This document shows positions 23,349-57,709 of a stretch of DNA of 64,000 nucleotides, one piece after another. Below the pieces are notes generated by a model. That model did not search any database and was not told the origin of the DNA. It saw nothing but the letters and a program-made list of their open reading frames with translations. The translations under genes were made by a program, and so were the position numbers. This stretch comes from Chromatiales bacterium (lineage in GTDB: Bacteria > Pseudomonadota > Gammaproteobacteria > UBA6429): positions 496,001 to 560,000 of the forward strand of contig JALTJN010000362.1 in NCBI GenBank assembly GCA_027076405.1, written 5' to 3'. Every line of letters starts with the position of its first letter. Position 1 is the stretch's first letter.

Positions 23349-23864
23349 ATGAACAAAATTCAAACTACTGTAAGCGGATTAATTTTAACTATGTTGCCTT
23401 TAACTTGCTGGTCGGCAGGTTTGACGCGCGAGCAAATTAAGGGGCTTGATGAACAGGTTCAGGACATAAAGAAAGATGTATTGGCTATTTCAGCTGAGCT
23501 TCAGTTATTAGAGGAAAAATTGTTATATCCCTCGAGCAGTCAGGTATCGCTTTTTATATCAACCGGTAAAGAAAAAAATTACAGTCCTGATGCGGTGCAA
23601 ATAAAGATTGATGGCAAAAAAGTTGTCCACCATATATACAGCTTTAAAGAAGTTGATGCCCTGCGCCGGGGAGGGGTACAAAGAATTTACACCGGGAATA
23701 TTCGAGGTGGAAATCACCGTCTCGATATTAGTGTGATTGGACGCAAATCAGGGGGGGAGACTAAACGTAAATTGACTTACTCCCTTAAAAAAGGAATTGG
23801 ACCGAAGTTGGTGGAAATCAAACTGGGCTCGGGATCATCAGCAATTGATGTTGTTGATCAATAG
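23349..23864 (+). CDS. Cluster A1: exported coiled-coil/beta protein
   Basis: 171 aa, not a named family I know. Residues 1-23 are a signal peptide, residues ~25-58 a coiled coil (E-Q-V-Q-D-I-K-K-D-V-L-A-I), and the rest is beta-rich. Its paralog is B1 (57182-57709): the two share L-x-x-Q-V-Q-D-x-K-K, V-Q-I-x-I-D-G-K, and R/K-G-G-V-Q-R-I-Y-x-G-N-I. It is the first gene of a ten-kilobase cluster with TPR proteins and a TolQR-type motor, so I infer a periplasmic structural role. GGAAG lies about 12 nt before the ATG. The C-terminus differs from B1. Confidence 0.8.
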   Translation: MNKIQTTVSGLILTMLPLTCWSAGLTREQIKGLDEQVQDIKKDVLAISAELQLLEEKLLYPSSSQVSLFISTGKEKNYSPDAVQIKIDGKKVVHHIYSFKEVDALRRGGVQRIYTGNIRGGNHRLDISVIGRKSGGETKRKLTYSLKKGIGPKLVEIKLGSGSSAIDVVDQ

Positions 23865-23891
23865 TCATAGTGCTGTTATTGAAGAATTAAC

Positions 23892-25862
23892 GTGTATCAA
23901 AGTATAAAATTTTTAACTCTGCTTTTTCTTTTTGTTGTCTCGTCTTCTACAAGCGCTGTACCTGCAAGCAAGGATCTCTATTTCAGTGAAGGCTTGTATT
24001 ATGCCTATCAGGAAAAATATTTTGATGCGATCAGCAGAATAGATGCAGAACTTGGGCAATATTACGGGCTGGATGAGCCTGAACTTAATTCACTTCATTT
24101 TTATCTGAACAATGCCGAGTTCTCTATTGGTGATTTTGAATTGTACTACCGTATGCACAATCGTGCAGGGCGGGCAATTAAATCTGTTCTTGAAGGTAAT
24201 GTGGCTGATATTATTAAAAATGATGCAGCATATCGTTTAGCAAAAATTTATCACCAAAAACAACAGCCCATTAATGCTCTGCACACAATACAGCGTATTA
24301 AAGGCGAAGTGCCGGATAAGATAAAATATGATCTTGAGTTGCTTAAAGCTCAAATATATATATCAAATGCTAAATTTAATGATGCAATTGAATTATTGAG
24401 TGATATAGAAAATGATTCTGCTGTTGAAGGTTATGCCAGTTATAACCTGGCTATTGCATACATTGGAAATAATGAAGTTGCAAAAGGGATTATTCAGCTT
24501 GATAAAACAGGACAGCTAAACTCAACAGATAAGTCTGTATTGGCAATACGCGATAAGGCAAACCTTGTTCTCGGTTATAAATTAATGGAGAACAATCAAC
24601 CGGAGCGAGCCAAAAAATATTTTGAACGCATTCGATTAAACGGTCCTTTTTCTAACAGGGCATTATTAGGTTCAGGCTGGGCAGCCGTTGCTGCTAAAAA
24701 ATATAAACAGGCAATTATTCCATGGCGAATTCTAGCTAAACGAAATGTAACCAACCAATCCGTACAGGAAGTGCTATTAGGACTTCCTTTTGCCTATGGG
24801 AAGCTTGAGGCATATGGCAGAGCTGCAATTTTATATGGCAATGCATTAGCCGCTTATAGTAAAGAGCTTAAGAAACTCGATGACTCAATTAAAAACATTC
24901 GTGAAGGAAAATTTTTAGAAGCGGTTGTTAGAGAAGAATACCGAAAAGATAAAAACTGGTTAATTGATTTACGTAACCTTCCTGATGCGCCGGAAACACA
25001 TTACTTAATGCAATTGTTAGCATCAAATGATTTTCAGGAATCACTTAAGAATTATTTTGATTTAGATGAATTAGGTAAAAAGGTTGATTCATGGGATGGA
25101 TATCTGGATTCATACTCGGAAATCATTAATTACCGTAAAAATTATTACACGCCGTTATTTCCCCCTATGCAGGAAAAATTTCGTTTACTGGATTCAAGAA
25201 TGAAATTAAGACTGGCACAACGACAAAAGATCGCAGATCGGTTAAAGAAAATGTTGATTGCGCCAAGACCGGATTATCTGGCAAAAGTAAATGAAAGGCT
25301 TGCTTTAAACAGGATATATAAACTTGAGAAAAAATATAAAAAAGGTCAGGGTGAAGAATACGATGAAATTAATGCTCGTTTAAAACGCTTAAAAGGGGTT
25401 ATTAAGTGGGATATTGAAACAGAGTATCAGGATAGGTTTACCGAGGCGGATAAGGATCTCCGTTTGTTAAATGCAGATATTGATGTGCTGGATAACAGGT
25501 ACCGCTCTTTTGTCAGAACCCGTCAGGCAGCAACTCAAAGCTTTATTGGTTATGACGATCAAATCATCCAATTAAAAAATCGTATTCGTTTTGCCGATGA
25601 AAAAATAAAATTATTATTGGCAAGGCAGGGGCATATGCTGGAGATGATGTCGATTAATGAACTGGAACGCAGACGCAAACATATTGAAGAGTTACAAATA
25701 AAAGCAAGATTCTCTCTTGCAGAAAGTTATGATCGTGCCGTAAAAAAACAACAAAACATAGAATTAAAAAAAGGGATAAAAGAACAGGAGAATAAAAAAC
25801 TGCCAGGGAATCTGCCGGCCAGCAAAGGAAACCTGAAAAATGAGACAGGTGAAAAGAAATGA
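23892..25862 (+). CDS. Cluster A2: exported TPR-repeat protein
   Basis: 656 aa. Residues 1-23 form a signal peptide (no lipobox). Residues ~30-330 are helical repeats of TPR/Sel1 character (Y-Y-A-Y-Q-E-K-Y-F-D-A, A-Y-R-L-A-K-I-Y, A-S-Y-N-L-A-I-A-Y-I-G). Residues ~420-620 are long charged helices forming coiled coils with basic residues. The paralog is B2 (55260-57161) with shared S-x-x-A-L-L-G-x-G-W-A and A-R-x-S-L-A-x-x-Y-D-R. GTG start. The stop overlaps A3 (ATGA). It is probably a periplasmic scaffold. The TPR plus TolQR plus AgmX context recalls the Glt proteins of Myxococcus. Confidence 0.85.
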   Translation: MYQSIKFLTLLFLFVVSSSTSAVPASKDLYFSEGLYYAYQEKYFDAISRIDAELGQYYGLDEPELNSLHFYLNNAEFSIGDFELYYRMHNRAGRAIKSVLEGNVADIIKNDAAYRLAKIYHQKQQPINALHTIQRIKGEVPDKIKYDLELLKAQIYISNAKFNDAIELLSDIENDSAVEGYASYNLAIAYIGNNEVAKGIIQLDKTGQLNSTDKSVLAIRDKANLVLGYKLMENNQPERAKKYFERIRLNGPFSNRALLGSGWAAVAAKKYKQAIIPWRILAKRNVTNQSVQEVLLGLPFAYGKLEAYGRAAILYGNALAAYSKELKKLDDSIKNIREGKFLEAVVREEYRKDKNWLIDLRNLPDAPETHYLMQLLASNDFQESLKNYFDLDELGKKVDSWDGYLDSYSEIINYRKNYYTPLFPPMQEKFRLLDSRMKLRLAQRQKIADRLKKMLIAPRPDYLAKVNERLALNRIYKLEKKYKKGQGEEYDEINARLKRLKGVIKWDIETEYQDRFTEADKDLRLLNADIDVLDNRYRSFVRTRQAATQSFIGYDDQIIQLKNRIRFADEKIKLLLARQGHMLEMMSINELERRRKHIEELQIKARFSLAESYDRAVKKQQNIELKKGIKEQENKKLPGNLPASKGNLKNETGEKK

Positions 25863-28800
25863 GTATAAAAAAATTATTACTTATTTCTACGCTGCTTTTT
25901 CTCAATGCCTGCGCAATTAATCAGCAGGGAACAATAGCTGATCTAAGAGATGTCGATATTGAGATTGTTGATTCTCATATTGATGGTGGGCTTGAAAAAG
26001 CGATGAAAAGTTATCAGCAATTTCTGGAAAAAGCACCGGAATCAGCAAGAACCCCGGATGCTATTCGTCGGCTTGCAGATTTAAATATTGAAAAGGAATA
26101 TGGTGTTATTAGCGAAGAGGAAGAGAAAAATTTAAAGGAACAAAATAAAATTGTGGTCGCAAAGCCTGTTCCTTCTGTTGTAAATAATCATAAGTTAGAA
26201 ACTGCGGATAAAAAACGCAAGATTGCAGATGTAAAGTCGGAATCTATCAGCAAGTTTGAGAAGCGAGCCGCATCCCGACAAAAGATAAAATCAGCAAAAA
26301 ATATTGCGCTGTCTGCACTACCGAAAGGCGCTAATGTAGAAGACTTACAGACGGCGGGAGCAAAAAAAGCAATAAAACTGTACAAGAAATTGCTTATAAA
26401 ATTTCCTTTGTACGAACATAAAGATCAGGTTTTGTATCAACTTTCACGTGCTTATGAAGAATTAGGTCAGGTTGAAATGGCCATGAAAGTGATGAATCAA
26501 TTAGTACAAAAATATCCAGATTCGCGGCATTTCCCTGAAGTGCAATTCAGGCGGGCAGAATATTATTTTACACGCAAGAAATTTCTGGATGCAGAAGATG
26601 CATATAAATCCATTATTAAAATTGGAAAGGGCACAGAATTTTATGAGCTTGCTTTGTACAAGCAAGGCTGGACTTTTTATAAGCAGGATTTATATGAAGA
26701 AGCTCTGGATCACTTTATTGCTTTACTCGATTTAAAAGTCAGTATTGGTTACGACTTTTCGCAAACAGACAATCCCTCAGAAAAAAAACGACTCGATGAT
26801 ACCTTTCGGGTTATTAGTTTAAGTTTCTCAAATCTTGGTGGTGCAGATACTGTTATTTCTTATTTTAAAAAGGTTGGCTCTAAATCATATGAAAGCGATG
26901 TTTATAGCTTTTTAGCAGAATTTTATCTGCTGAAGCGCCGTTATAGTGATGCCGCTTTAACCTATAAGGCTTTTATTGATAACAATCAATATCACAAGCT
27001 AGCACCGCACTTCAGCATGCGAATGATAGAGATTTATCAGAAAGGACGTTTTCCTAAATTAGTCATAGAAGCTAAAAAACATTATGCCTCAGCGTATGGC
27101 ATAAATAAGAGCTACTGGAAATATTATAATATTAAAGATCATCCGCAAGTGGTTAAGTTTTTAAAAACAAATATTATGGATTTAGCCAATCATTATCATG
27201 CACTGTATCAGGATGTTCGTTATCGCAGAATAAAAAAACAAAACTTTAAAGATGCTGTGCAGTGGTATCACGAATTTCTGCGTTCTTTCCCCAGAGATAC
27301 ATTATCCCCCGGGATTAATTATTTATTGGCCGATTTATATTTAGAAAATAAGGATTTTCTTGCTGCAGCGACAGAATATGAAAAAACGGCATATAAGTAT
27401 CCGATGAATGAGAAATCATCAAAAGCGGGTTATGCCGCAGTATACTCTTATCGGGAATATATGAAGCATGCTCCCCAATACCAAAAGTTAAAAGCCAAGC
27501 GTGAAGTCATTCGCGTGTCATTAACCTTTGTTGATGTCTTCCCAAAACATAAAAAAGCCGCTGTTATTTTAACCTCGGCTGCAGATAATCTATATGAACT
27601 TAAAGATTTTCAGTTGGCAATTAATACGGCTAATCAGCTTATAAAGAAATATCCGAAATCAAAACAGTCGCTGCGACGCTCGGCCTGGTTAGTTATTGCT
27701 TATTCGTCTTTTGATCTTCTTAAATATAAAGATGCTGAGTTGGCATATATTAATGTCATTAAGATGCCCGGTAAAAATAAAAAATTACGTAAGAAGTTAA
27801 TTGAAAATCTGGCTGCTGCTGTCTACAAGCAAGGTGAGGCGGCAAACAAATTTTCAGATTATAAACTTGCGGCTGAACATTTTTTACGTATTAGAAAACT
27901 TGCACCCTATTCAAAAATTCGCTCTACGGCTGAATATGATGCTGCCACGGCTCTGATTAAATTGAAAGACTGGAAAAGGGCTGCTTCGGTATTACTCTTA
28001 TTCAGGAAAATGTTTCCAAAACATAAATATCAGGCTGAGGTAACTAAAAAAATTGCTTATGTTTATAGGGAAGATAAAAAATATTTTCAGGCAGCAAAGG
28101 AATTTGAGCGAATTTTTACCCAGGCTAAAACGCGGACTATTCAAAGAGAGTCTTTACAGATTGCGGCTGAACTGTATAAAAAGATACCGGATCAAAAAAA
28201 CACATTACGTATCTACAAGCGTTATGTGAAATATTTCCCTAAACCTCTGGAAGAGGCTCTGGAAATAAGAACAAACATTGCAGGAATATATAAAGAAAAT
28301 AATGAGCGAAAAAAATATATAAAAACACTTAAATATATTATTAAAGCTGATGCCCGAGCCGGCTCGTCAAGAACTGAACGCACCCGATATCTGGCAGGAA
28401 TGGCATCTTTAAAAATTATAGAACCTATTTATAAACAATTTGTTGCAATTAAACTTAAACGTCCTTTTAAGCGTAATTTGGCAAAGAAGAAGAAAAAATT
28501 AAAACGTAATATCAGAAGATACAATAAATTGGTCGACTATCATGTTGGCGATGTCACAGCAGCAGCAACCTATTATATAGCTGAAACTTATTATCATTTT
28601 AGTCGGGCATTGCTTGAATCCGAGCGACCTAAAAACCTGAATGAGCTAGAGCTGGAACAATATAATTTGATTATTGAAGACAAGGCCTACCCTTTTGAGG
28701 AGAAGGGTATAAAAATTCATAAGAAAAATCTGGAATTACTTTCGGTTGGTGTATACAGCAAATGGATTGAAAAAAGCTTAGCCAGACTGGCGGTTTTGGT

Positions 28801-28924
28801 TCCGGGACGTTATGCCAAATATGAACTTAGTAGCGGTGTTATCGATACGATTATGCAGTATGAATATGAAGTGGGTGATGTTGTCGCTGAAGACGAGAAA
28901 TCCATAGCCAAAAGTGAACAATAA
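25859..28924 (+). CDS. Cluster A3: ~1000 aa TPR lipoprotein
   Basis: 1021 aa. The N-terminus L-F-L-N-A-C-A is a lipobox with Cys18; Ala at +2 predicts outer-membrane sorting. From residue ~40 to ~850 there are many TPR-like repeats, e.g. A-P-E-S-A-R-T-P-D-A-I-R-R-L-A-D-L and L-Y-Q-L-S-R-A-Y-E-E-L-G. A Lys/Glu-rich spacer covers residues ~80-165, and a basic K-K-K-K-K-L-K-R stretch near residue 880 precedes conserved V-T-A-A-A-T-Y-Y-I-A-E. The paralog is B3 (52420-55263), which lacks most of the spacer. It likely spans the periplasm from the outer membrane. It is coupled to A2 and followed by a 344 bp gap. Confidence 0.85.
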   Translation: MSIKKLLLISTLLFLNACAINQQGTIADLRDVDIEIVDSHIDGGLEKAMKSYQQFLEKAPESARTPDAIRRLADLNIEKEYGVISEEEEKNLKEQNKIVVAKPVPSVVNNHKLETADKKRKIADVKSESISKFEKRAASRQKIKSAKNIALSALPKGANVEDLQTAGAKKAIKLYKKLLIKFPLYEHKDQVLYQLSRAYEELGQVEMAMKVMNQLVQKYPDSRHFPEVQFRRAEYYFTRKKFLDAEDAYKSIIKIGKGTEFYELALYKQGWTFYKQDLYEEALDHFIALLDLKVSIGYDFSQTDNPSEKKRLDDTFRVISLSFSNLGGADTVISYFKKVGSKSYESDVYSFLAEFYLLKRRYSDAALTYKAFIDNNQYHKLAPHFSMRMIEIYQKGRFPKLVIEAKKHYASAYGINKSYWKYYNIKDHPQVVKFLKTNIMDLANHYHALYQDVRYRRIKKQNFKDAVQWYHEFLRSFPRDTLSPGINYLLADLYLENKDFLAAATEYEKTAYKYPMNEKSSKAGYAAVYSYREYMKHAPQYQKLKAKREVIRVSLTFVDVFPKHKKAAVILTSAADNLYELKDFQLAINTANQLIKKYPKSKQSLRRSAWLVIAYSSFDLLKYKDAELAYINVIKMPGKNKKLRKKLIENLAAAVYKQGEAANKFSDYKLAAEHFLRIRKLAPYSKIRSTAEYDAATALIKLKDWKRAASVLLLFRKMFPKHKYQAEVTKKIAYVYREDKKYFQAAKEFERIFTQAKTRTIQRESLQIAAELYKKIPDQKNTLRIYKRYVKYFPKPLEEALEIRTNIAGIYKENNERKKYIKTLKYIIKADARAGSSRTERTRYLAGMASLKIIEPIYKQFVAIKLKRPFKRNLAKKKKKLKRNIRRYNKLVDYHVGDVTAAATYYIAETYYHFSRALLESERPKNLNELELEQYNLIIEDKAYPFEEKGIKIHKKNLELLSVGVYSKWIEKSLARLAVLVPGRYAKYELSSGVIDTIMQYEYEVGDVVAEDEKSIAKSEQ

Positions 28925-28998
28925 TAGATGTTGATTGTTTAGTTAAAATTTATTAAGAATTATCTTTATTCAAGAAATATTTAGAAAATTTTTTGAAA

Positions 28999-29019
28999 GT
29001 GATGCTTATGTCACATAAG
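28999..29019. promoter_or_regulatory. Dyad GTGA-N8-TCAC, copy 1, overlapping a 15-bp palindrome
   Basis: GTGATGCTTATGTCAC occupies 28999-29014. Overlapping it, CTTATGTCACATAAG (29005-29019) is a palindrome with 7-base arms around a central C. The spacing (8) differs from CRP (6), so another regulator is more likely. Confidence 0.4.
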
Positions 29020-29095
29020 TAAAACTATTTATTAAAGCAGTGGTGGATTTGACCGAGAAATAGCGTACTGCATAAAGATTTAGTGCTTACATTTA

Positions 29096-29111
29096 GTGAT
29101 GTGTTTCTCAC
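29096..29111. promoter_or_regulatory. Dyad GTGA-N8-TCAC, copy 2
   Basis: GTGATGTGTTTCTCAC has the same outer half-sites and spacing as copy 1, and both share GTGATG. The copies are 97 bp apart, about nine helical turns, so co-operative binding on one face is possible. Confidence 0.4.
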
Positions 29112-29268
29112 AACAACAATAAAATCATACAGTTAGATTTTATTATATCTAAATAAGATAGACTTTAATTATATGCGAGAACGAGAGATTTATCTTAAAG
29201 AATGAGTTTTATTATATTTGTGATGGCAAGGAAACGTTTTAAATTAATTTGATTTTGTCAAAATTATT

Positions 29269-29886
29269 ATGGGTTTATTTATCTTCAAATATTACAAAGT
29301 GAGCTTTATTTTACTCGTTATGCTGCTGCTAACGGCATGTAGCACTACAAACACAAACAAGCAGGTTGTGACTCCTGTTAGTAATGATATTGTTATTTCA
29401 GAAGAATACGGTATTGATACTGCGCTGAATGATAAGTTTAATACGGCGGTTGGATTAATAAAGGAAGAAAAATATCAGCAAGCAATTGATTTGCTCGTTG
29501 AAGTAACTGATAAAACAAATAAACATAGTGCTCCCTATATTAATCTTGCGATCGCCTATTCTGAATTGGGTAAGGTTAAAGATGCCGAGAGAATTTTACT
29601 TCGTGCACTTAAAATAAACCCGCAACATCCGGTAACGAACAATGAGCTTGGCTTGCTTTATCGAAAGACCGGGCAGTTTTCAAAGGCAAAGAAAATCTAT
29701 GAAAATATCATTAATGTTTATCCTCAGTTTTTACCGGCAAGAAAAAACCTGGGGATTTTATGCGATATTTTTATGGCTAATCTGGAATGTGCAATTTCAC
29801 AGTATGAAGCCTTTTTAAAATATCAGCCTGATAATAAAAAAATGAAAATCTGGTTGGTTGATTTAAAACGAAGAGCAGGTCGGTAA
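29269..29886 (+). CDS. Cluster A4: small TPR lipoprotein
   Basis: 205 aa. Lipobox L-L-T-A-C at residue 24 with Ser at +2 (outer membrane). Three or four TPRs fill residues ~55-190: A-P-Y-I-N-L-A-I-A-Y-S-E-L-G, N-N-E-L-G-L-L-Y-R-K-T-G, A-R-K-N-L-G-I-L. It resembles PilF/Tgl-like pilotins in layout. The paralog is B4 (51846-52430), with the same ending D-L-x-R-R. It is three bases before A5. No clear ribosome site precedes the ATG, which is unusual in this cluster. Confidence 0.85.
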   Translation: MGLFIFKYYKVSFILLVMLLLTACSTTNTNKQVVTPVSNDIVISEEYGIDTALNDKFNTAVGLIKEEKYQQAIDLLVEVTDKTNKHSAPYINLAIAYSELGKVKDAERILLRALKINPQHPVTNNELGLLYRKTGQFSKAKKIYENIINVYPQFLPARKNLGILCDIFMANLECAISQYEAFLKYQPDNKKMKIWLVDLKRRAGR

Positions 29887-29888
29887 TT

Positions 29889-30179
29889 ATGTTTTCAAGT
29901 AAAAAAATATTTATTATTTTGTTGTCACTTGCTTTGAGTCAGGCAAGTTTCGCAGAAAAGGAAAAAAAGAAAGTGGATACGGCTAAAACTTTATCCGGTA
30001 TCTCAATTATTGGTAATAAAGATACACCAAAGTCATTGTATATCGTGCCGTGGCGCAGTTCAGATTTAGGGTTGGAAACAGATTTAAGTTCGAGTCTTTT
30101 GAATGAGGGACTTCATCCTGTTGACAAGGATGTGTTCATAAGAGAATTAAATTTTTACGAAATTAGTACAACGAAATAG
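29889..30179 (+). CDS. Cluster A5: small exported protein with SIIGNK...LYIVPW signature
   Basis: 96 aa with a signal peptide (residues 1-22, ending S-F-A). The mature part contains S-I-I-G-N-K-D-T-P-K-S-L-Y-I-V-P-W and P-V-D-K-D-V-F-I-R-E. B5 (51538-51837) has the same two motifs: S-I-I-G-N-K-x-x-P-K-x-L-Y-I-V-P-W and P-V-D-R-D-K-F-K-R. The small size, export and exact position before the TolQ gene in both clusters argue for a dedicated subunit, perhaps an adaptor between the TPR lipoproteins and the motor. No named family is recognised. Confidence 0.82.
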   Translation: MFSSKKIFIILLSLALSQASFAEKEKKKVDTAKTLSGISIIGNKDTPKSLYIVPWRSSDLGLETDLSSSLLNEGLHPVDKDVFIRELNFYEISTTK

Positions 30180-30216
30180 TTGTGAATATGACAAGTAAGG
30201 TATGAGGGTTTAGGTT

Positions 30217-30861
30217 ATGGATTTTATATATACGATTATCGCATTTATTCAGGAAGGCGGGACATTTATGTATCCCATACTTATTGTTTTTGCCTTTGGC
30301 GGAGCTATTGCGGTAGAGCGAATGGTTGTGCTCGCTTCAGTTCGCGGAAAAAACAGAAAGATGTGGGATAAATTACACCCTGTTATGGTTGAAGGTGATT
30401 TTGATCAAGCGCGTGAAATGACCACAGAAGATAATTCTTACATCAGTCAGCTTTTGGGGATGGGGCTGGCTCGGGAAGGTACGGTGCGTCGACGTGATGA
30501 TATTGAAATCGCGATGGAAGAAAGCATGATGGAAATTATTCCTCAACTTGAAAAACGTACACCTTATGTTGCTTTATTTGCCAATATCTCGACGTTACTT
30601 GGATTACTGGGAACTATTATGGGCTTGATTCAGGCTTTTACTGCGGTTGCAAATGCTAACCCGGCCGAGAAAGCAGATTTACTTTCTGCAAGTATTTCAG
30701 TTGCCATGAATACTACCGCTTTTGGCTTGATGGCGGCCATTCCTTTATTGATTATTCATACTTACCTGACATCAAAAACCGGTGAGATTATTGATAGCCT
30801 GGAAATGGCATCGGTGAAAACATTAAATATCATTTCTGAATCTGCTAAACGTCAGGGATAA
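30217..30861 (+). CDS. Cluster A6: TolQ/ExbB/MotA-type proton channel subunit
   Basis: 214 aa with three membrane helices (residues ~16-38, ~120-142, ~160-185). The MotA/TolQ/ExbB signature is complete: E-K-R-T-P-Y-V-A-L-F-A-N-I-S-T-L-L-G-L-L-G-T-I-M-G-L-I-Q-type sequence followed by S-I-S-V-A-M-N-T-T-A-F-G-L. The V-A-M-N-T-T-A segment carries the channel Thr. With two TolR/ExbD partners it should form an inner-membrane stator that uses the proton gradient. The paralog B6 is clearly similar along its whole length. The AglR protein of Myxococcus is the functional analogue suggested by context. Confidence 0.93.
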   Translation: MDFIYTIIAFIQEGGTFMYPILIVFAFGGAIAVERMVVLASVRGKNRKMWDKLHPVMVEGDFDQAREMTTEDNSYISQLLGMGLAREGTVRRRDDIEIAMEESMMEIIPQLEKRTPYVALFANISTLLGLLGTIMGLIQAFTAVANANPAEKADLLSASISVAMNTTAFGLMAAIPLLIIHTYLTSKTGEIIDSLEMASVKTLNIISESAKRQG

Positions 30862-30869
30862 ATTTTACT

Positions 30870-49706: not shown

Positions 49707-49707
49707 A

Positions 49708-50202
49708 CTAAATTTTATCCGCTTGTTTACGTACTACAGCAAGGGAAATATTGGCAAACTTTGTTCCCGCGGAGGTGAGCATGATTTTTTTAAGCAACTT
49801 ATACGGGATTTCTTTATCGCCCATAACGGTTATGTTGTAACGCTTTTTCTTCTTTGGTTGTTTTTTGGCGTGTTTAATCAGTGCGAGTGCAAGCTCGGGA
49901 ATAATCTGTTTATTATTATTTGTTGCCGCTTTTGTACTAATAACATAATGGCCGTTAATCTGAATGTCCTTTTCACTTACCATAATAATAAGCGTTTTCT
50001 TTGGCTGTTTTTCAGTTGTTGATGTCGGTAAATGAATCGCTTTTACAGGTGGCAGTGCTTCTGACTCGGACGAGGTGACGAGCAAAAAGAAAACAAGGAT
50101 AGTAAATATATCCATCAAAGAGACCATGTTTAATGATGCACCTTTATCCCGGCGGTTTTTATTTAACGCTATCATTCTTTTTGTACGGCTGGATTTACTC
50201 AT
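49708..50202 (-). CDS. Cluster B8: TolR/ExbD-type protein 2
   Basis: 164 aa. It has a basic start, one membrane helix with the channel Asp in S-L-M-D-I-F-T-I-L-V-F-F-L-L, and a periplasmic domain ending I-S-L-A-V-V-R-K. P-Y-K-L-L-K-K-I-M aligns with P-F-K-Y-L-K-K-I-M of A8. A K-K-Q-P-K-K-K-K-R stretch makes this copy more basic than A8. It is nine bases from B7 and one base from B9. Confidence 0.92.
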   Translation of the reverse strand: MSKSSRTKRMIALNKNRRDKGASLNMVSLMDIFTILVFFLLVTSSESEALPPVKAIHLPTSTTEKQPKKTLIIMVSEKDIQINGHYVISTKAATNNNKQIIPELALALIKHAKKQPKKKKRYNITVMGDKEIPYKLLKKIMLTSAGTKFANISLAVVRKQADKI

Positions 50203-50211
50203 ACTTTAAAC

Positions 50212-50721
50212 CTATTTGAATTTTGGCGCATCGCCAATTGAAATATCAGGGAAAAGTTCAGCCTCTATGACTTCACCATCTTGCACTGCATTAAATACAC
50301 GCACTGCATCCATAGTATTCACCAGTGAATCATATTTAGAGTCTTGTTGAGCCAGAATAGTAATGTTTGTTTTATCGGGATATTTTATTTTTACCTGTTT
50401 TAAAACTTTATTCAGAATAATGAAATGTCCACCTGTTTTAAATGTTGGTATTTTTTTAATAATGTGATTGTTATTGTCCATTACAACAAAATATTTCTTG
50501 CCCATAACAACATTTATTTCAAATGTTTTTTTCTTTTTTGCTGCTACCGTTTTGCCTGCTTGGGTATTTGTCGGTAAATTAATGTCGAGCACAGTCAAAT
50601 GTGTAAAAACGCTGGTTATCAGCAAAAAAGGCACAAGAATAACCATCAAGTTCATGAACGCGGTGATATCAAGCTCAACCGTCTCGGTTATTCGAATATG
50701 TCGACCAGAACGTTTACTCAT
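50212..50721 (-). CDS. Cluster B7: TolR/ExbD-type protein 1
   Basis: 169 aa. The channel Asp is in E-L-D-I-T-A-F-M-N-L-M-V near residue 18. The single helix is followed by a periplasmic domain with K-Y-P-D-K-T-N and a conserved tail D-I-S-I-G-D-A-P. The A7 paralog shares both the helix and the tail. It starts two bases after the B6 stop, so translation is likely coupled. Confidence 0.92.
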   Translation of the reverse strand: MSKRSGRHIRITETVELDITAFMNLMVILVPFLLITSVFTHLTVLDINLPTNTQAGKTVAAKKKKTFEINVVMGKKYFVVMDNNNHIIKKIPTFKTGGHFIILNKVLKQVKIKYPDKTNITILAQQDSKYDSLVNTMDAVRVFNAVQDGEVIEAELFPDISIGDAPKFK

Positions 50722-50723
50722 TT

Positions 50724-51350
50724 TTATTTACGTTTACTTAATAACTTAAGAAATTTAACGGTAGCCATTTCAAAACTAACAATAATTTCAGTCGTCTTTG
50801 CTTGTAAGATGGTATATATAAGTATGAGCGGGATTGCCGTGATTAATCCGAAGGCTGTTGTATTCATCGCAACGGAAATACTGGTTGATAATATCTCACC
50901 TTTTAAAGCGGGATCCACTGCCGCAACAGCACTAAATGCCTTGATCAAACCTATGATGGTTCCTAAAAGACCGAGTAAGGTAGCGATATTGGCAAACATG
51001 GACAGGTAATGCGTACGCTTTTCTATTTGCGGGATGGTTTCCATCATGCTGTCTTCAATTGCGGTTTCTATTTCATCGCGATTTGTGGTCGTTTTCATGC
51101 ACTGCAGACCTTCACTCAACATTCGGCTAATTGCATGATTCGACTTCGAAGTGACGGAATAAGCTCCCTGAAAGTCACCACTTTGCAGTAGCGGGATGAG
51201 TTTTTTTAAGAGCGATTTATTTTTTTGTTTAACAACAGTTAAATAAAGGTAGCGTTCGAGTGCGACAGCTAAGCCAAGCGCAAGAACAATCATAATGGGG
51301 TACATAAATACACCACCATCCTGAAAAAAATCAACAATTACTTTGTACAT
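50724..51350 (-). CDS. Cluster B6: TolQ/ExbB/MotA-type proton channel subunit
   Basis: 208 aa with three membrane helices. The signature R-T-H-Y-L-S-M-F-A-N-I-A-T-L-L-G-L-L-G and S-V-A-M-N-T-T-A-F-G-L is intact, including the Thr that lines the proton path. It is highly similar to A6, including the G-G-x-F-M-Y-P-I start and R-D-E/D-I-E. The Cys at residue ~85 (L-Q-C-M-K) is not in A6. A 187 bp gap upstream may hold an internal promoter; I see only a TTTACTGTAAA palindrome at 51512-51522 there. Confidence 0.93.
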   Translation of the reverse strand: MYKVIVDFFQDGGVFMYPIMIVLALGLAVALERYLYLTVVKQKNKSLLKKLIPLLQSGDFQGAYSVTSKSNHAISRMLSEGLQCMKTTTNRDEIETAIEDSMMETIPQIEKRTHYLSMFANIATLLGLLGTIIGLIKAFSAVAAVDPALKGEILSTSISVAMNTTAFGLITAIPLILIYTILQAKTTEIIVSFEMATVKFLKLLSKRK

Positions 51351-51537
51351 ACCACACTCCTGAATAGTGGTCGTGTTAAAAAATTATTTAGTGAATTAAA
51401 TAGCAGAGTTGACTTCGAAACATGTTCTGTGGATGAATTGTTTCGTTTGACAATTATTTTGCCCTCAAATATTAAATTGAGACCTCGGCACTTTAATTCG
51501 GCTAAATGTAGTTTACTGTAAAGTTTAAATCAAATTA

Positions 51538-51837
51538 CTAGTTCTCATTCTTATTACTTTTTTTTACGGAATATATCTGGTAATAGCGAATTTTCCGCTT
51601 AAATTTGTCCCTGTCAACCGGTGCTAAGGCTTCATCAATCAAACTTTCTATAGGGGGTGTATTCATATCGGGTAATTCTGCATTTTTCCACGGTACGATA
51701 TACAACATTTTAGGTAACTCTTTGTTGCCGATGATTGATGTGCTTTTTAGCTCAATTCGGTCTTCTGCTTGCAGAACAGGTGCAAAAAACAGGCAAAGAA
51801 GTAAATTTGAAAAAACAAGTTTGCTAAAGGTCTTCAT
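51538..51837 (-). CDS. Cluster B5: small exported protein with SIIGNK...LYIVPW signature
   Basis: 99 aa from the ATG at 51837, preceded by GAGGA at a good distance; an ATG at 51849 overlaps B4 and is less likely. Residues 1-24 are a signal peptide ending V-L-Q-A. The mature protein has S-I-I-G-N-K-E-L-P-K-M-L-Y-I-V-P-W and P-V-D-R-D-K-F-K-R. It differs from A5 mainly by a polar C-terminal tail (K-K-S-N-K-N-E-N). It occupies the same slot before the TolQ gene as A5. Confidence 0.82.
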   Translation of the reverse strand: MKTFSKLVFSNLLLCLFFAPVLQAEDRIELKSTSIIGNKELPKMLYIVPWKNAELPDMNTPPIESLIDEALAPVDRDKFKRKIRYYQIYSVKKSNKNEN

Positions 51838-51845
51838 GTTTGTCC

Positions 51846-52430
51846 TCATTTGTTTTTCGCCCTGGATTTTTTAAGTCGCCTTTCTAAATCAATGATCCAC
51901 TTGTTAACCTGTTTATCATCTTTTTCTAATATATCCTGATATTTTTTGTATTGCTCAATTGCGTTAGTAAAATCATACAAATAGAGATCAAAAAGTATCC
52001 CCAAATTTAAGCGGGCATAGGCATAGTTAGAGTCAATATCGATGGCTTTCTCATATGCAGTTTTTGCAGCAGAAAACTTTCCTTGCTGACGATAAAGAAT
52101 ACCCAGATGATTAAGTGCATAAATGTTTTCCGGATTGATTTTTAAAGCATACTGGAAAGAATTTTCAGCCTCATTTAAAGAATGATTTCTTAAATAAATA
52201 ATTCCCATATTAACATGTGCGTTAGAAAGTTTTGGTTGATGTTTAATCACCTTTCGTAATAACCGCTGGGCTTCTTTTAGTTCGCCATTTTTCATCGCAG
52301 AGAGTGCCTGTGAATAGTCTGCGCTATATTCTGTTTGCTTACCTGTCGAGTCTGATTCTTGTGTTGTAGAGCAGGCCGTGAGTAGTAAAACAGCTAAAAC
52401 AGGTAACAATGAAAGATACTTATTTAACAT
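51846..52430 (-). CDS. Cluster B4: small TPR lipoprotein
   Basis: About 194 aa from the ATG at 52430. Lipobox L-L-T-A-C at residue 20 with Ser at +2. TPR units A-H-V-N-M-G-I-I-Y, A-L-N-H-L-G-I-L-Y-R-Q-Q-G and A-R-L-N-L-G-I-L-F fill the middle. The ending W-I-I-D-L-E-R-R matches A4. An upstream ATG at 52457 would put nine basic residues before the signal; it lacks a ribosome site. The start overlaps the end of B3 by 11 bases. Confidence 0.85.
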   Translation of the reverse strand: MLNKYLSLLPVLAVLLLTACSTTQESDSTGKQTEYSADYSQALSAMKNGELKEAQRLLRKVIKHQPKLSNAHVNMGIIYLRNHSLNEAENSFQYALKINPENIYALNHLGILYRQQGKFSAAKTAYEKAIDIDSNYAYARLNLGILFDLYLYDFTNAIEQYKKYQDILEKDDKQVNKWIIDLERRLKKSRAKNK

Positions 52431-55263
52431 AGCTTTCTGCCTTTTCTGTTTTTGCATAACGAACCGGATTTAATTTACTTAATTTAGTGATACTTAATTT
52501 CACCCACTTATCATAAATATTATCTTTTACCCGTTCAGCATTGGCTTTGTGGATGTCTATGGCTTTCTCTTCAAAAGGGAAAGCCTGTTCTTCGAGTAAA
52601 TAACCGTATTCTTCGAGTTCAGCTGCATTTAATTTTTTAGGCCGTTGGGATTTGAGTAAGGCCGTTGCAAAATCATTGTATATTTCAGCAATATAATAGG
52701 TTGCTGCAGTTGTTATTTCTGCAACCCGGTACTTCATGGCATTATCATAAGATTTAACCACTTTTTTCATTAAATTCTTTTTCTTCTTTAAACTGCGTTT
52801 TAACGGTATGGTCAGGCGCGCTCTTGTATAAGCTTTAAATAAAGGTAATGTTAATTTCATGTAAGCGGTGGCAGCCAGGAAATGTGTACGCGCTGTGCGA
52901 TCTTTTCCGCCGCGGTTATCTGCTTTGATAATTTCGCGTAACCAGTAGTAATGCCGCTTGTAATTTGATTTTTTATTAAAGTCTGCCAGCAGCTGACGTG
53001 CCTCAATCGCTTGTTCAAGCGGTTTAGGATAGTTTTTTATGTAGGCGGTGAGAATATTTTTTGCAGTTTTTCTGCGTTTATTGTCATTATATATTTTTGC
53101 AGCATCCCAAAGTAATTCGCGTCGTTGATCCCGGCTATAATGTTTTGCATTGTTTGCAAGATAAACCATCTCATTAGCTGCTTTTACAGCTCGTCCGGAT
53201 TTTGTATAGACTAATGCCAGTTTCTCCGTTACGCCAAATTGTAACTTATGATTTTTAGGATAATTTTTTCTGAATCCTTCAAGTACTTTCTCAGCTTTTT
53301 TCCAGCTTTCGAGCTCAATATAAATGGTTGCAGCATCATAGTCTGCTGTTGCTCTTAATTTGGATGTGGGAACATCTCTGCCAACGCGAAGGAAAAATTC
53401 GGCAGCGATAGCGAGTTTATGTGAGCTTTTCGCTTGTTCACCCTGTTTATAAATGCTTGCTGCTAAACGTTCGCGGATATTTTTAAATTCTTTATGTTTT
53501 TTAGGCAGTTTTTTCATTAAAGAACGATATGCTTCTTCTGCTTCACTGTAATTACGCATTTCAAATTCAGCATGTCCCATTACCAGTAATGCACTGATGT
53601 AGAGTTTTCTATTTACTTTTGCATCTGTAATGAGTATTGATGCAGTACCAATTGCCCGTGGGTAATCACCAATTTTAAAGAGCTCTTCTGCCGTATTAGT
53701 GAGTATTGCCGGAGTATATTTATTCTTTGGAAATTGATTGGTGTACTTTAAAGCACTGCTGATCTTTTTCTGTTGCCATTGTTTTTGTGGTTCACCCTTA
53801 AGGCTTTTCTGAATAGCAGGATAGAGTAATAGAGCGGCATAGGCTGCTTGTGGTTTTTTCTTATAATCAGGATATTGATAAGCGGTTTTCTCAAACTGGT
53901 AAATTGCATTACGATACTGGCCGGCATCCTGATGGGCTTCGGCAAGTAAAAAATTAATTTTTGCCGTGCCGCTGTCTTCAGGAAATGACTTTATATACAA
54001 TTTATACCAGCTGGTTGCCTGAGTAATATTGCTCGCAAAAAGAGTGCTGTTCTTTCGAGTTTTCTTTTTCTTGTTTGCCCGCTTATAACTTCTGGCTTTA
54101 GCATGGAAGTGATTTGCCAGCTCTGTAATATGACGTTTTAATAGAGGCGTAATTAATTTTTGCGCTTCTTTGTTTTGTGCTTTCCAGTAAGCAGTATTTA
54201 CCCCATATTGCTTAACAAAAGAGATTTTTGTTGGTAAAACGAGACTGGTAAAACCACCTTTTTTATATGCTGCGATTGCTTTCGAATGATATTTGGGCGC
54301 AAGGGCAGATGTTGTATAGGTTTTACTATATGCAAGATAGGTTTCAGCCGCATCACGAATTCTGTCTTTATCCAGATAGAGTTTAGCCAGATTACTATAA
54401 ATTAAAGATTCATATTTTTTTTGTCCATTTTTTTGAAAATAAGCAAAGATACTTCTATGACCATTCTGGTAAGAAAAAGAAAGACTTGTGGCGCGTAAAA
54501 TATCACTCAATAACTCCCGGTTTGAACGGGATATTTCGGGTGAAGGACCGTCATTTAATAATTGACCTTGTTGATATTTGCGATCAAGAAAACGAATGAA
54601 CGCTTGGGTTGCTGATGGGTAGTCGGCTTGTTTAAAACGAGCCCAGCCATACTTGTATAATGATTTTTCAAAATAAGAGGAATCAGGGTGATTATTTAAA
54701 ATTTCAGCATAAGAAAGCTCGGCCTGTTTATAATTGTTGCGTATAAAATATGCTTCTCCACGGCGAAATTGTATTTCTTCTATGTAGCGTGTATTCGGGA
54801 ATTTTCTCGCAATTGTATTTAGAGTAAGAAGTAATTTATCTTGCTGCAAATCAAGTTCATAAGCTTTTGCGAGTTGATATAAAATTAAATCATTATTCTT
54901 TTTATTCGGGTAGCTTTCCAGAAATGCCTCATAAATACGTATTGCGGTTTTAATTTTTTTCTTTGACGATAGAATTTGCTTCCTGCTGTCAGATGCACTT
55001 TGGTCCTGTCCTGATTGAAGTTCAAGATCTGCAAGACGACGCATTGCATTACCATACATACCACCTGTCGGGGCAGATTTAAGAAATTGACGATAAAGTT
55101 CAACAGTATTTTCACGTTTTAAAGGTTTTGTCTTTTCCTCTTTGAGATCGAGTGTTTTTTTAGATAAAACAGCAATAGTTTCATCCTTTGTATACTTACC
55201 GGAACATGCCGCCAATGAGGTTATTGTTGCTATTGTAAATATTAAAAATGAAGAATATTTCAT
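52420..55263 (-). CDS. Cluster B3: ~950 aa TPR lipoprotein
   Basis: 947 aa. Lipobox L-A-A-C with Cys20 and Ser at +2 (outer membrane). Many TPR-like repeats follow, including L-Y-R-Q-F-L-K-S-A-P, I-L-Y-Q-L-A-K-A-Y-E and V-L-E-G-F-R-K-N-Y-P-K. The end shares T-A-A-T-Y-Y-I-A-E-I-Y and F-P-F-E-E-K-A-I-D-I-H-K with A3. The Lys-rich segment near residue 840 (K-R-S-L-K-K-K-K-N-L-M-K-K) is also shared. It is coupled to B2 by ATGA. Confidence 0.85.
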   Translation of the reverse strand: MKYSSFLIFTIATITSLAACSGKYTKDETIAVLSKKTLDLKEEKTKPLKRENTVELYRQFLKSAPTGGMYGNAMRRLADLELQSGQDQSASDSRKQILSSKKKIKTAIRIYEAFLESYPNKKNNDLILYQLAKAYELDLQQDKLLLTLNTIARKFPNTRYIEEIQFRRGEAYFIRNNYKQAELSYAEILNNHPDSSYFEKSLYKYGWARFKQADYPSATQAFIRFLDRKYQQGQLLNDGPSPEISRSNRELLSDILRATSLSFSYQNGHRSIFAYFQKNGQKKYESLIYSNLAKLYLDKDRIRDAAETYLAYSKTYTTSALAPKYHSKAIAAYKKGGFTSLVLPTKISFVKQYGVNTAYWKAQNKEAQKLITPLLKRHITELANHFHAKARSYKRANKKKKTRKNSTLFASNITQATSWYKLYIKSFPEDSGTAKINFLLAEAHQDAGQYRNAIYQFEKTAYQYPDYKKKPQAAYAALLLYPAIQKSLKGEPQKQWQQKKISSALKYTNQFPKNKYTPAILTNTAEELFKIGDYPRAIGTASILITDAKVNRKLYISALLVMGHAEFEMRNYSEAEEAYRSLMKKLPKKHKEFKNIRERLAASIYKQGEQAKSSHKLAIAAEFFLRVGRDVPTSKLRATADYDAATIYIELESWKKAEKVLEGFRKNYPKNHKLQFGVTEKLALVYTKSGRAVKAANEMVYLANNAKHYSRDQRRELLWDAAKIYNDNKRRKTAKNILTAYIKNYPKPLEQAIEARQLLADFNKKSNYKRHYYWLREIIKADNRGGKDRTARTHFLAATAYMKLTLPLFKAYTRARLTIPLKRSLKKKKNLMKKVVKSYDNAMKYRVAEITTAATYYIAEIYNDFATALLKSQRPKKLNAAELEEYGYLLEEQAFPFEEKAIDIHKANAERVKDNIYDKWVKLSITKLSKLNPVRYAKTEKAESYVK

Positions 55264-57161
55264 TTTTTATCCCCCATCCTGGTATGAGGTGTTTTCTCGG
55301 TATGCTTAGTTTGTCCGGCGGGCAAGGTAAGACGATCATATAACCGGGCTAAAGAGTAACTTGCCCGGGTATGGTAATTTTGTATCTGGCGATAACGTTG
55401 TTGTAATGACTTGACAGCCTGTTTTTCAATAAGCTTTTCCTGTGAAGTCAGAATGCCTGTAATTTTATTTAATAAGCGATTTAACTTTTTCTTTTTAATG
55501 CTAATTCGGTTTTTATAGCCGGAAAAAGAGAGCGGGGCATTTTTGCTGGAGCGCCGTAAAGAGATAAGCTGTTTGCTGGATAAATCGAGAGCCTTATTAA
55601 CCTGATTTAATTCATTTCTTACTTTCCAGTAACGAGGAGTATAATCTGTGCTAATTTGCCAAAGAATTAGCCCACGGTATAAATTGTATTTTTCATGTTC
55701 GTCTGAATATTCTTCTTTATTATTTAAGCGTTTCAAAGACTTCCTGGCTCTGTCTAATGCTTTTAAAATTTCTTTTTCGTCTTCAGTTGCTAAAGCATAA
55801 ACGTTTTCTTGCTGCTTAATTTGTTGCAACACTTGTTCAAGTTTATCTCGTTGTCTTTTTAATTTATTGACAAGTTGTAAGCGAGCATCTTTTTTGGTGA
55901 CTTGCTGCTGCTGTTTATAGTATGCAGCGCGTTCTTTTAACATTAAAGTATAAGCAGGAAATTGATGTTTCCATTCGTGGAGGTTCTTTTTCAGGTAAAT
56001 TAAATCCAGATAATTTTTATGTATACGCTGGAAATCAACACTATCAAGCAGATGATGAATATAGGGCGCTGATATTGATTTAGGCAGCTGACTTTTGTGC
56101 TCTGTGGCTAATATGTTTTCTGTCACGATAGCTGGCCGAAGGGCAATAAGCAATTCACCTGCCTTAATTGCATTTAATGTAGATTTTAGTGTTGCCAGTT
56201 CTTTTTTATAATTATCGATGGCATAGTTATAATGTTTTAGCGCAAGCTGGTTTTTGCCCATTTTTTCTAAGGTGTAAGGTATGGCAAGTAATGATTCCTG
56301 TACCGCAGTATCAATAACCGGCCAGTCACGTAATTCCATCCACGAGATTAAAGCTTGTTGTAAATTATTTTGTTGCTGGTAAGCCCAGCCAATACCTAAT
56401 AGGGCTTTGGCGGATAAAGGGCCTTTTAAACGAACTTTATTTAAAAAATGGATTGAGGCTTTTGGCTGCTTTTGCCGGATATAGGCATAACCTAACGCAG
56501 CATTGGTTTTATCTCTTAGTGCTTTTAATTCATTATCATTTGTTTTTAGGTGACTAATGTTATTAAGTAAATCAGTACCTTCCCGGTTTTTACCTGATTT
56601 GATTAATGAAACGCCCATATTATATTGGGCGTAAACCAGCCAGTCTTGATGTGCATCAAGCTGCTGAATAGCTTTATAGGCAGATGCAAAATCTTTTTGC
56701 TTAAGATAAGTATTGGCCAGCATATTTTGTCTTTCTGCTTCTCTTTCCGGAGAAAGAGTATCCTGGGCTTTTACCAGAGCCTGATTTGCTTCATTATATA
56801 AATGCCCCTGATAGCGCATTTTGCCTATATTAAACCATGCTCGATCCTGAACCTCTTTGGAGGTGTTGTCTTTAATTAAGTCTGAAAAAATCCTGCTGGC
56901 ATCCTGATGTAAACCATAATATAAATATAAACCACCGAGCAGCAATTCTGGATCTGTTTTCTGAGTTGTAATGGGGTTACGTTCTTTGGCTACCATCAAG
57001 TCTGTAATGGAGGTGAAATATTGTTCCTGATAGAAATGAAAGAGCGCTTCACCATAACGTAAATCATTTACTTTATGAGGTTCACGCTCAACGGCAAAGC
57101 TACTTACTGCAAAGGATGCAATAAGTGTAAAAACGACACCTTGTTTTATTCTTTTAATCAT
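55260..57161 (-). CDS. Cluster B2: exported TPR-repeat protein
   Basis: 633 aa from the ATG at 57161; a TTG at 57191 would overlap B1. Residues 1-23 form a signal peptide (A-S-F-A-V-S-S-F-A). TPR-like repeats cover ~30-340 (A-L-F-H-F-Y-Q-E-Q-Y-F, A-W-F-N-I-G-K-M-R-Y, A-L-L-G-I-G-W-A-Y), followed by coiled-coil segments to residue ~610. The order of regions equals A2. The end is polar and overlaps B3. Confidence 0.84.
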   Translation of the reverse strand: MIKRIKQGVVFTLIASFAVSSFAVEREPHKVNDLRYGEALFHFYQEQYFTSITDLMVAKERNPITTQKTDPELLLGGLYLYYGLHQDASRIFSDLIKDNTSKEVQDRAWFNIGKMRYQGHLYNEANQALVKAQDTLSPEREAERQNMLANTYLKQKDFASAYKAIQQLDAHQDWLVYAQYNMGVSLIKSGKNREGTDLLNNISHLKTNDNELKALRDKTNAALGYAYIRQKQPKASIHFLNKVRLKGPLSAKALLGIGWAYQQQNNLQQALISWMELRDWPVIDTAVQESLLAIPYTLEKMGKNQLALKHYNYAIDNYKKELATLKSTLNAIKAGELLIALRPAIVTENILATEHKSQLPKSISAPYIHHLLDSVDFQRIHKNYLDLIYLKKNLHEWKHQFPAYTLMLKERAAYYKQQQQVTKKDARLQLVNKLKRQRDKLEQVLQQIKQQENVYALATEDEKEILKALDRARKSLKRLNNKEEYSDEHEKYNLYRGLILWQISTDYTPRYWKVRNELNQVNKALDLSSKQLISLRRSSKNAPLSFSGYKNRISIKKKKLNRLLNKITGILTSQEKLIEKQAVKSLQQRYRQIQNYHTRASYSLARLYDRLTLPAGQTKHTEKTPHTRMGDKK

Positions 57162-57181
57162 ATCAACAATATATAAGGAAC

Positions 57182-57709
57182 TTATTCCCAAACTTTTGAT
57201 TTGAATTCGGGTTGTTGCTTGGTTAAATTGTCGATAATTTTTAATTCAACAAATAAAGGCGAGCTTGTTTTTTCTATTTTTATTGTAGTGCCTCGTTTGT
57301 AGTATCTTTTTCTTGGCCCTTTACCGTTAAAGAAAGCAACTAACTCATGTTCACCTGAAGCAATGTTGCCAAGATAAATTCGTTGTACACCGCCTTTTTT
57401 AAGTGCATTAATTTCCCGTAAGGTATAAAGGTGGTTACTGATATTTTTACCATCAATATTAATTTGTACCGAATCCAAATCAAATAAATTACCAACATCC
57501 ATTGATAAAAATATACTGAATTGAGTATTCGCAGGAAAAAGCAAGTCTTCTTCGAGAATAAACAGCTCTTTGTTTAACTCGAGTACTTCCTTTTTAAGAT
57601 CCTGAACCTGCTTTTCTAAAGCTGGTGATTTTTCTTCAGCAAATGATGGAGTAGAGATAATCATTGTTAGAAGCAGGATGAATAAATATTTTATATTTTT
57701 ATGTAACAT
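57182..57709 (-). CDS. Cluster B1: exported coiled-coil/beta protein
   Basis: 175 aa from the ATG at 57709. The signal peptide ends P-S-F-A. A coiled coil follows (L-E-K-Q-V-Q-D-L-K-K-E-V), then a beta-rich domain with V-Q-I-N-I-D-G-K and K-K-G-G-V-Q-R-I-Y-L-G-N-I, the signature shared with A1. It begins 17 bp after the DUF3570 gene on the same strand, so cluster B appears to continue an operon that starts further upstream. Confidence 0.8.
   Translation of the reverse strand: MLHKNIKYLFILLLTMIISTPSFAEEKSPALEKQVQDLKKEVLELNKELFILEEDLLFPANTQFSIFLSMDVGNLFDLDSVQINIDGKNISNHLYTLREINALKKGGVQRIYLGNIASGEHELVAFFNGKGPRKRYYKRGTTIKIEKTSSPLFVELKIIDNLTKQQPEFKSKVWE

Follow-up and report, generated by a model that had tools for sequence, protein, structure and literature searches.

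What would a bacterium do with two versions of one putative proton-driven envelope machine that lie head-to-head on a single contig? The question was raised by a stretch of 64,000 nucleotides from a Chromatiales bacterium of the Gammaproteobacteria (assembly GCA_027076405.1, contig JALTJN010000362.1, positions 496,001 to 560,000 of the forward strand), here called the window, in which positions are counted from the first letter. Two sets of nine genes, A1–A9 (23349–33218, plus strand) and B1–B9 (48783–57715, minus strand), 18 genes in all, follow the same order from 1 to 9. Judged from their sequences, they are old paralogs with different partners: set A is joined by a DUF11 giant and a protein with OmpA-like domains and a barrel, and set B by genes for thioredoxin-like, DUF3570, and outer-membrane proteins. 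A third lineage of this core is found in other Gammaproteobacteria, embedded in type VI secretion clusters.

The genes of the two sets were paired one-to-one by blastp, with identities of 27–56% and E values from 5e-18 to 5e-177: 37.5% for gene 1, 27.1% for gene 2 (27% over 623 columns), 39.5% for gene 3 (39% over 844 columns), 34.6% for gene 4, 47.6% for gene 5, 56.4% for gene 6, 35.9% for gene 7, 40.4% for gene 8, and 38.0% for gene 9. At E<1e-2, matches between A and B linked like-numbered genes only, and the sole cross-number match was that of B7 with B8, both TolRs. The Pfam scan revealed tetratricopeptide repeats (TPR) in genes 2, 3, and 4, MotA_ExbB in gene 6, ExbD in genes 7 and 8, and TonB_C in gene 9; no Pfam family was found in genes 1 and 5 of either set. 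The open reading frames (ORFs), blastp, and Pfam thus bore out the original prediction, made from the sequence without database searches, of 18 genes in this order with a one-to-one match between the sets.

Genes 1–5 encode the envelope part of the core. Gene 1 (A1, 23349–23864; B1, 57182–57715) encodes a secreted protein with a coiled coil and a beta-sandwich. In the AlphaFold model of A1, a helix spans residues 27–58 and strands span residues 65–170, with a predicted local distance difference test score (pLDDT) of 75.5; comparison of this fold with the PDB gave nothing convincing (best E 5e-3). Gene 2 (A2, 23892–25862; B2, 55260–57191) encodes a periplasmic TPR protein, with TPR_16 in A2, and gene 3 (A3, 25859–28924; B3, 52420–55263) a large TPR lipoprotein, YfiO-like and with TPR_6 in A3; A2 and A3 resemble GltC and GltD, respectively, by size and place only. 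The small TPR lipoprotein encoded by gene 4 (A4, 29269–29886; B4, 51846–52457) is GltE-like by a weak match to NCBIfam GltE (NF033758), at 30.4 bits for A4 and 36.9 for B4 with a cut-off of 225, and other TPR families score higher. Between A3 and A4, in an otherwise tight operon, 344 bp (28925–29268) hold no listed ORF. Gene 5 (A5, 29889–30179; B5, 51538–51849) encodes a small secreted protein with the motif SIIGNK..LYIVPW, represented by a family alignment of 17 rows; a search for this protein in plasmids gave no match.

Genes 6–9 make up the putative motor. Gene 6 (A6, 30217–30861; B6, 50724–51350) encodes a TolQ/AglR-type subunit, with a MotA_ExbB score of 91 bits in A6; genes 7 (A7, 30870–31391; B7, 50212–50721) and 8 (A8, 31388–31885; B8, 49708–50202) encode the first and second TolR-type subunits. 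The product of gene 9 (A9, 31896–33218; B9, 48783–49706) is a predicted TonB-like force transducer with an AgmX/PglI C-terminal domain (NCBIfam NF033768, cut-off 40 bits; A9 67.5, B9 71.0). A sequence search of the PDB with A6 returned seven sequences, all TolQ or ExbB. The scores of A6 and B6 were, nevertheless, 59.3 and 61.6 bits with the TolQ equivalog (cut-off 221) and 42.8 and 45.8 bits with the ExbB equivalog (cut-off 206). In a TolQ tree of 127 rows, the 107 core TolQ sequences fell on one side, and the eight TolQ and 12 ExbB-like proteins of relatives fell apart from them. An identity of A6 and B6 with ordinary TolQ or ExbB was ruled out by the equivalog scores together with this separate tree group. 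The original prediction had named a firm grouping with ordinary TolQ/ExbB as the result that would speak against it; A6 and B6 lay outside both groups, so no such grouping was found, in a comparison that covered TolQ and ExbB-like proteins of relatives.

At the proton site, the two TolRs of each cluster (30870–31885 and 49708–50721) differ from each other, and this holds for almost the entire family. An aspartate was present at this site of gene 8 in all 97 distinct family sequences (Asp31 in B8), and an asparagine stood in the aligned column of gene 7 in 96 of 98 (Asn24 in B7), A7 and A8 included. Rows of the type VI lineage showed the same pattern, with Asn in gene 7 and Asp in gene 8 in 9/9 each. 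Among the TolR/ExbD-like proteins near TolQ/ExbB of relatives, Asp was found in 12 of the 13 with a residue there, and two further rows were gapped. Thr131 and Thr165 of gene 6 were kept in 99/99 distinct sequences. We take the aspartate to be the proton-binding residue of the TolR transmembrane helix and the two threonines, at their usual places, to be the channel residues of TolQ; from these conserved residues we infer that the core probably works as a motor.

The domains, AgmX scores, and equivalog scores also upheld the assignment of both clusters to the composition of the Agl-Glt/Nfs core of Myxococcus rather than to Tol-Pal or ExbBD. Luciano et al. (2011; PMC3169522), in the parts of the main text drawn on here, defined AglR, Q, S and GltC, D, E, G as a core complex of unknown function. 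By their account, the genes of this complex lie together with one further gene in Geobacter and in carriers that are not deltaproteobacteria, and some genomes have them in duplicate. This core and both clusters alike combine, within a single region, one TolQ with two TolRs, a TonB-C protein, and three TPR proteins, and several copies occur in some genomes; the difference is that nine genes recur here, compared with the reported seven plus one. By composition, therefore, the two clusters are the gammaproteobacterial core of that paper with genes 1 and 5 added, and the kinship with AglR is taken from it. Operon types with DUF11/barrel, DUF3570/ApbE/thioredoxin, or type VI genes are absent from those parts of its main text. 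The motor, the TonB-like rod, and the TPR envelope complex are shared with Agl-Glt/Agl-Nfs of Myxococcus xanthus, whereas the cores of the window are linked to other surface partners; GltG is listed with an FHA domain, while none was present in A9 or B9. Parts of Mignot and Nollmann (2017; PMC5349195) depict GltG as a rod that acts on outer-membrane barrels. Tol-Pal and ExbBD-TonB likewise share the proton-motor subunits and the TonB-C rod, and the core differs from them in its two unequal TolRs, its TPR lipoproteins, and its separate tree group.

The distribution of the core was surveyed in 369 genomes drawn from Gammaproteobacteria. The gene-5 profile was found in 85 of them (23%) and the AgmX domain (E≤1e-9) also in 85, and the two occurred together in 82 (Fisher p 2e-74, a value that treats related genomes as if they were independent). 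In the three genomes with gene 5 only (G084, G246, and G360), the contig ends no more than 2.2 kb downstream of this gene; AgmX without a gene-5 match was found in G093, G133, and G357. A genome scan with the gene-5 pair gave 17 loci, all from gammaproteobacterial metagenome-assembled genomes by title and all adjoined by core genes. Of the 108 gene-5 matches, 100 neighbourhoods were surveyed, the six weakest rows and two loci of G003 being left out, and neighbours were counted over 99 loci after L125 dropped out. Where the flank was long enough, the core genes were present on the same strand as gene 5 in 71/89 loci for gene 1, 79/92 for gene 2, 93/96 for gene 3, 89/99 for gene 4, 79/96 for gene 6, 79/95 for gene 7, 77/93 for gene 8, and 72/87 for gene 9.

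A phylogenetic comparison of motor and envelope genes divided the core into lineages. On the TolQ tree, A6 fell inside a group of 16 rows that contained all 13 DUF11-type rows, and B6 clustered with its counterparts from four relatives (L001–L004) inside a group of 18 rows, 16 of which were of the ApbE or DUF3570 type. Nine rows labelled type VI formed one group; the label denotes a TssM about 7 kb from AgmX in six of them and comes from neighbouring gene sizes only in L030, L032, and L033. On the tree of gene 3 (109 rows), 13 A rows lay in a group of 14, B3 stood with L001–L003, and seven type VI rows came together with a support of 92, which is under the starred level. The A and type VI groups both adjoined L128/L130 on this tree, as the type VI group did on the TolQ tree. 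The A, B, and type VI groupings thus agreed between a motor and an envelope gene. Taken as wholes, the DUF3570 and ApbE rows were scattered over several groups in both trees, which indicates that this link was gained or lost on more than one occasion. Each of the three groups, A, B-like, and type VI, contained a core copy from a single genome, G154. A recent duplication was ruled out, since in both trees A and B belonged to different lineages and had separate relatives; hence the description of the clusters as paralogous held for deep paralogs and failed for a recent copy.

The partners of set A are two giant ORFs, both belonging with A, that lie directly behind A9 on the plus strand. A10 (33292–43503) encodes a protein of 3403 aa, probably located at the surface, with DUF11, SdrD_B, and DUF7619 domains; A11 (43500–48659; 1719 aa) encodes three OmpA-like domains followed by a large predicted outer-membrane beta-barrel. 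A DUF11 giant stood behind gene 9 in 11 of the 99 loci, and a homolog of A11 followed it in all eight A-type clusters readable that far downstream (G002, G036, G154, G184 over two loci, G318, G328, G363, and G378); the remaining A-type clusters met a contig end or were read no further. Close homologs of A11 (48–55%) occurred in 11/369 genomes, all 11 of which had gene 5 and AgmX. Another homolog of A11 is assigned by name to Thiohalomonas denitrificans. A profile search of the PDB with A11 returned mainly proteins with OmpA-like domains.

The neighbourhood of set B begins 11 bp upstream of B1 with a DUF3570 protein (57727–58929, minus strand; DUF3570 132 bits). Farther upstream on the same strand lie the genes for a thioredoxin-like protein (59083–59613; AhpC-TSA/Redoxin) and for a possible outer-membrane protein, judged by eye and with no Pfam family (59617–60297). 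Same-strand genes upstream of gene 5 encoded thioredoxin-like proteins in 18/99 loci, DUF3570 in 19, ApbE in 15, and members of the family of about 226 aa to which the 59617–60297 protein belongs in 13. DUF3570 is a known flavin-attachment substrate of ApbE, according to parts of Meheust et al. (2021; PMC8238504), and the DUF3570-ApbE-thioredoxin flavinylation clusters given there share with the present loci DUF3570, a thioredoxin-like protein, and, in relatives, ApbE near gene 1. The window differs from them in that its DUF3570 protein has no [S/T]GA[S/T] sites and in that no ApbE was found among the 17 flanking window genes scanned; both flavin-attachment sites deviate (SSAS and LGAS), for which reason a flavinylated DUF3570 protein in the window was dropped as a candidate. 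The main text of PMC8238504 made no mention of TolQ, ExbB, or TPR.

The type VI lineage gave a third context. In G218 (L156:411–19610 and L114:862–8730), the order of genes was TssL, TssM, TagF, a PP2C phosphatase, a protein kinase, 6-7-8-9, TssA, TssB, TssC, TssC, a gp25-like gene, TssF, unscanned genes, ClpV, and 2-3-4-5; that is, the motor lay between the kinase gene and TssA, and in this lineage the envelope set 2–5 was placed behind ClpV or nearby. Corresponding loci were L152/L153/L117 in G154 and L155/L154/L116 in G363. The cluster of G154 also carried TssJ, TssK, and FHA, so the core has been added there to the usual type VI membrane complex. In a survey of TssM (E≤1e-100, two candidates scored per genome), 61/369 genomes were positive, 58 of them over the cut-off, and in eight of the 61 AgmX and TssM shared a contig at a distance of about 7 kb (G003, G094, G145, G154, G196, G218, G363, and G378; G196 and G378 by the AgmX-TssM distance only). 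TssM overlapped with gene 5 in 20/61 genomes (p 0.07), which is no clear co-occurrence, and the link therefore concerns this lineage and not type VI secretion in general. In G094, G145, G154, G218, and G363, the motor and the 2–5 set were 17–38 kb apart on one contig; despite this distance, the split sets had matching tree positions. Open-licence literature, searched mostly at the level of titles, held no report of a link between the core and type VI clusters, DUF3570, or DUF11 surface proteins, and the parts of PMC8929069 and PMC3426401 used had no bearing on such a link.

Envelope sets without any of genes 6–9 made up 20 of the 100 loci, and for 15 of these at least 6 kb were read downstream (L036, L061, L063, L090, L092–L095, L111, L116, L117, L120, L122, L134, and L135). 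The original prediction would have been weakened by homologs of A1–A5 without motor genes; such homologs do exist as these 15 single loci, and they do not at the level of genomes, where AgmX accompanied gene 5 except at contig ends. Six of the 15 belonged to the type VI lineage, as judged for five by a TssM on their contig and for L036 of G003 by tree; seven were of the DUF3570 type, and L111 and L122 fitted neither. In G081, G098, G214, G318, and G327, the number of AgmX matches over the cut-off equalled that of motor-bearing clusters, which left no spare AgmX beside the motor-less DUF3570 set and suggests a shared motor. Two further genomes with a motor-less DUF3570 set, G073 and G210, had a motor without genes 1–5 elsewhere. 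Within the bounds of draft genomes, these data suggest that motor-less DUF3570 sets may share the motor of another cluster.

On gene content, order, co-occurrence, matching motor and envelope trees, and three genomic contexts, we regard the finding as real and its kind as known; the function beyond composition is left as a reading. The one we favour, and to which we give an even chance of being right, is that the core acts as a modular transducer, driven by protons, whose outer-membrane terminal can be exchanged. Each cluster would then be one Agl-Glt-type core whose proton channel is formed in the inner membrane by gene 6 and the asymmetric TolR pair 7 and 8. The channel would work the TonB-like rod (gene 9), which would reach through the peptidoglycan and meet a periplasmic and outer-membrane assembly of the TPR proteins 2, 3, and 4, the gene 1 protein, and the SIIGNK protein 5. 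The terminal of A would be the A11 barrel, with its OmpA-like domains gripping peptidoglycan, together with A10, and proton-driven cycles would pull or move A10-A11 so as to adhere to surfaces, generate force, or assemble the giant protein. The terminal of B would be the DUF3570 protein with the neighbouring outer-membrane and thiol-redox genes. Contact of the core with A11 or with the DUF3570 protein is proposed here from gene linkage.

The separate partners in the A, B, and type VI lineages make the core look like a general engine with exchangeable parts. In the broadest form of this reading, which we put forward tentatively and consider rather less than probable, unrelated devices would be plugged into one general-purpose engine: a DUF11 fibre, a DUF3570/thiol-redox module, and a whole type VI apparatus, with motor-less sets borrowing the motor of a sister cluster. 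In cluster A, the giant DUF11 fibre would be held by the OmpA/barrel anchor, and in the type VI lineage the core would move, place, or energise the injection machine.

Several observations weigh against the modular transducer. All nine families were found together in only 52/100 loci; of the 80 loci whose flanks reached far enough in both directions, 48 had them all. In 38/99 loci the motor was present with neither recognised type of neighbour. Both trees came from quick searches, and the TolQ tree has long branches. Finally, a survey for the A11 barrel, with two candidates scored per genome, found relatives (E≤1e-15) in 47/369 genomes, 16 of which had no gene 5; the barrel can therefore work without the motor elsewhere.

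Gliding is one possible option among several for cluster A, which on this account would be a surface-motility machine moving A10 adhesins, like Agl-Glt of Myxococcus or SprB of Flavobacterium. The composition of the core agrees with it, as does the presence of a giant adhesin-like protein and a barrel in the same operon. However, NCBIfam recognised no GltA/B/F/H-K among the 18 genes and A11 (the existence of a model for each is unchecked) and gave only weak matches to GltE, GltG, and GltJ (GltJ at 21.7 and 19.9 of 450 bits). The core also occurs with redox and type VI genes, and parts of PMC3169522 express doubt that it alone drives gliding. We consider gliding unlikely.

Alternatively, cluster A might export or assemble A10 through A11 under proton drive without moving it. 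A10 and A11 are adjacent and in some cases fused, as DUF11-OmpA fusion proteins show, and a large outer-membrane barrel is predicted in A11; on the other hand, relatives of this barrel exist without the core. The AlphaFold model of A11 residues 560–1719, with about 33 regular strands, was weak overall (pLDDT 61; predicted template modelling score, pTM, 0.35), and its fold matches were outer-membrane barrels in general (TonB-dependent, LptD, AlgE, FimD). These generic matches and the low model confidence leave a translocon identity of A11 unsupported, and its membership in a named translocon family was dropped. This exporter, too, appears improbable.

The head-to-head layout itself calls for caution. 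In four relatives (L001–L004), a gene matching a possible beta-barrel protein (22283–22987, minus strand; OMP_b-brl below cut-off) follows directly after B9, starting 15–100 bp behind it by match ends, and is itself followed in B-type relatives by the gene for a cyclic-nucleotide-binding/rhodanese/coiled-coil protein (19010–22135, minus strand). In the window, 25.8 kb separate B9 from the 22283–22987 gene, and operon A fills the space. In G002 and G003, operon A was on another contig and B9 was followed by the 22283–22987-type gene; with A and B apart in both relatives read, the layout is particular to this window. Either A reached its place beside B by insertion or relocation, or the assembly is in error at the join. 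The latter is quite unlikely in our estimate: it is favoured by the two relatives and by the finding that none of the 33 AgmX-positive genomes among 40 of the family had two AgmX matches on one contig, whereas G+C is even across the window at 4-kb steps, no repeats that could cause a join were found at either end of the A module or at the join, and both operons are real whatever the join. The suggestion that a pair of machines jointly flanks a giant surface protein by design was not upheld, as the giants are the tail of operon A and the clusters lie apart in two relatives. Least probable of all is that the cores are extra Tol-Pal-like systems of envelope maintenance that tie the membranes without a dedicated surface device, which would fit the TolQ/TolR/TonB chemistry and the OmpA-like domains but is at odds with the lineage-specific partners, with the presence of the core in only 85/369 genomes of the class, and with a true TolQ, above its cut-off and on a separate branch, in 8/8 relatives tested.

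Some neighbouring genes may be recorded here. The 19010–22135 protein (1041 aa) has two cyclic-nucleotide-binding domains, a rhodanese domain, and a long coiled coil, and its family occurs downstream of gene 5 on the same strand in 7/99 loci. A protein with FHA and nucleotide-cyclase domains is encoded nearby (16840–17784, plus strand). The two families recur near clusters in relatives, at 12 and 10 loci, respectively, and the two proteins are possibly a regulatory pair. Upstream of the B neighbourhood, in the window and also in L001–L003 and L027, lies a family whose window member (61117–63909, minus strand; 930 aa) carries two CxxCH motifs together with PD40 and hydrazine-synthase-alpha-like domains. 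In L006–L011, L037, L038, L040, L049, and L051, a further family, of about 535 aa and with no Pfam domain, lies upstream of ApbE and gene 1; one member has a twin-arginine-like start, and in several of these loci the family is preceded by another, with a LamG-type domain in the scanned member. At 404–1273 (minus strand), the window encodes a HamA-domain protein (202 bits), presumably a component of Hachiman anti-phage defence.

In conclusion, the parts of PMC3169522 used here posed in 2011, as an open question, what role the core has beyond the myxobacteria, and with several of its lineages now tied to concrete partners this question has become testable. For Myxococcus, parts of Wartel et al. 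(2013; PMC3858216) show that the Agl motor can drive Glt as well as Nfs; the motor-less sets found beside motor-bearing clusters suggest that motor sharing of this kind may occur elsewhere. If the type VI link is what it appears to be, a proton motor in these clusters would be a new energy input to the type VI machine.

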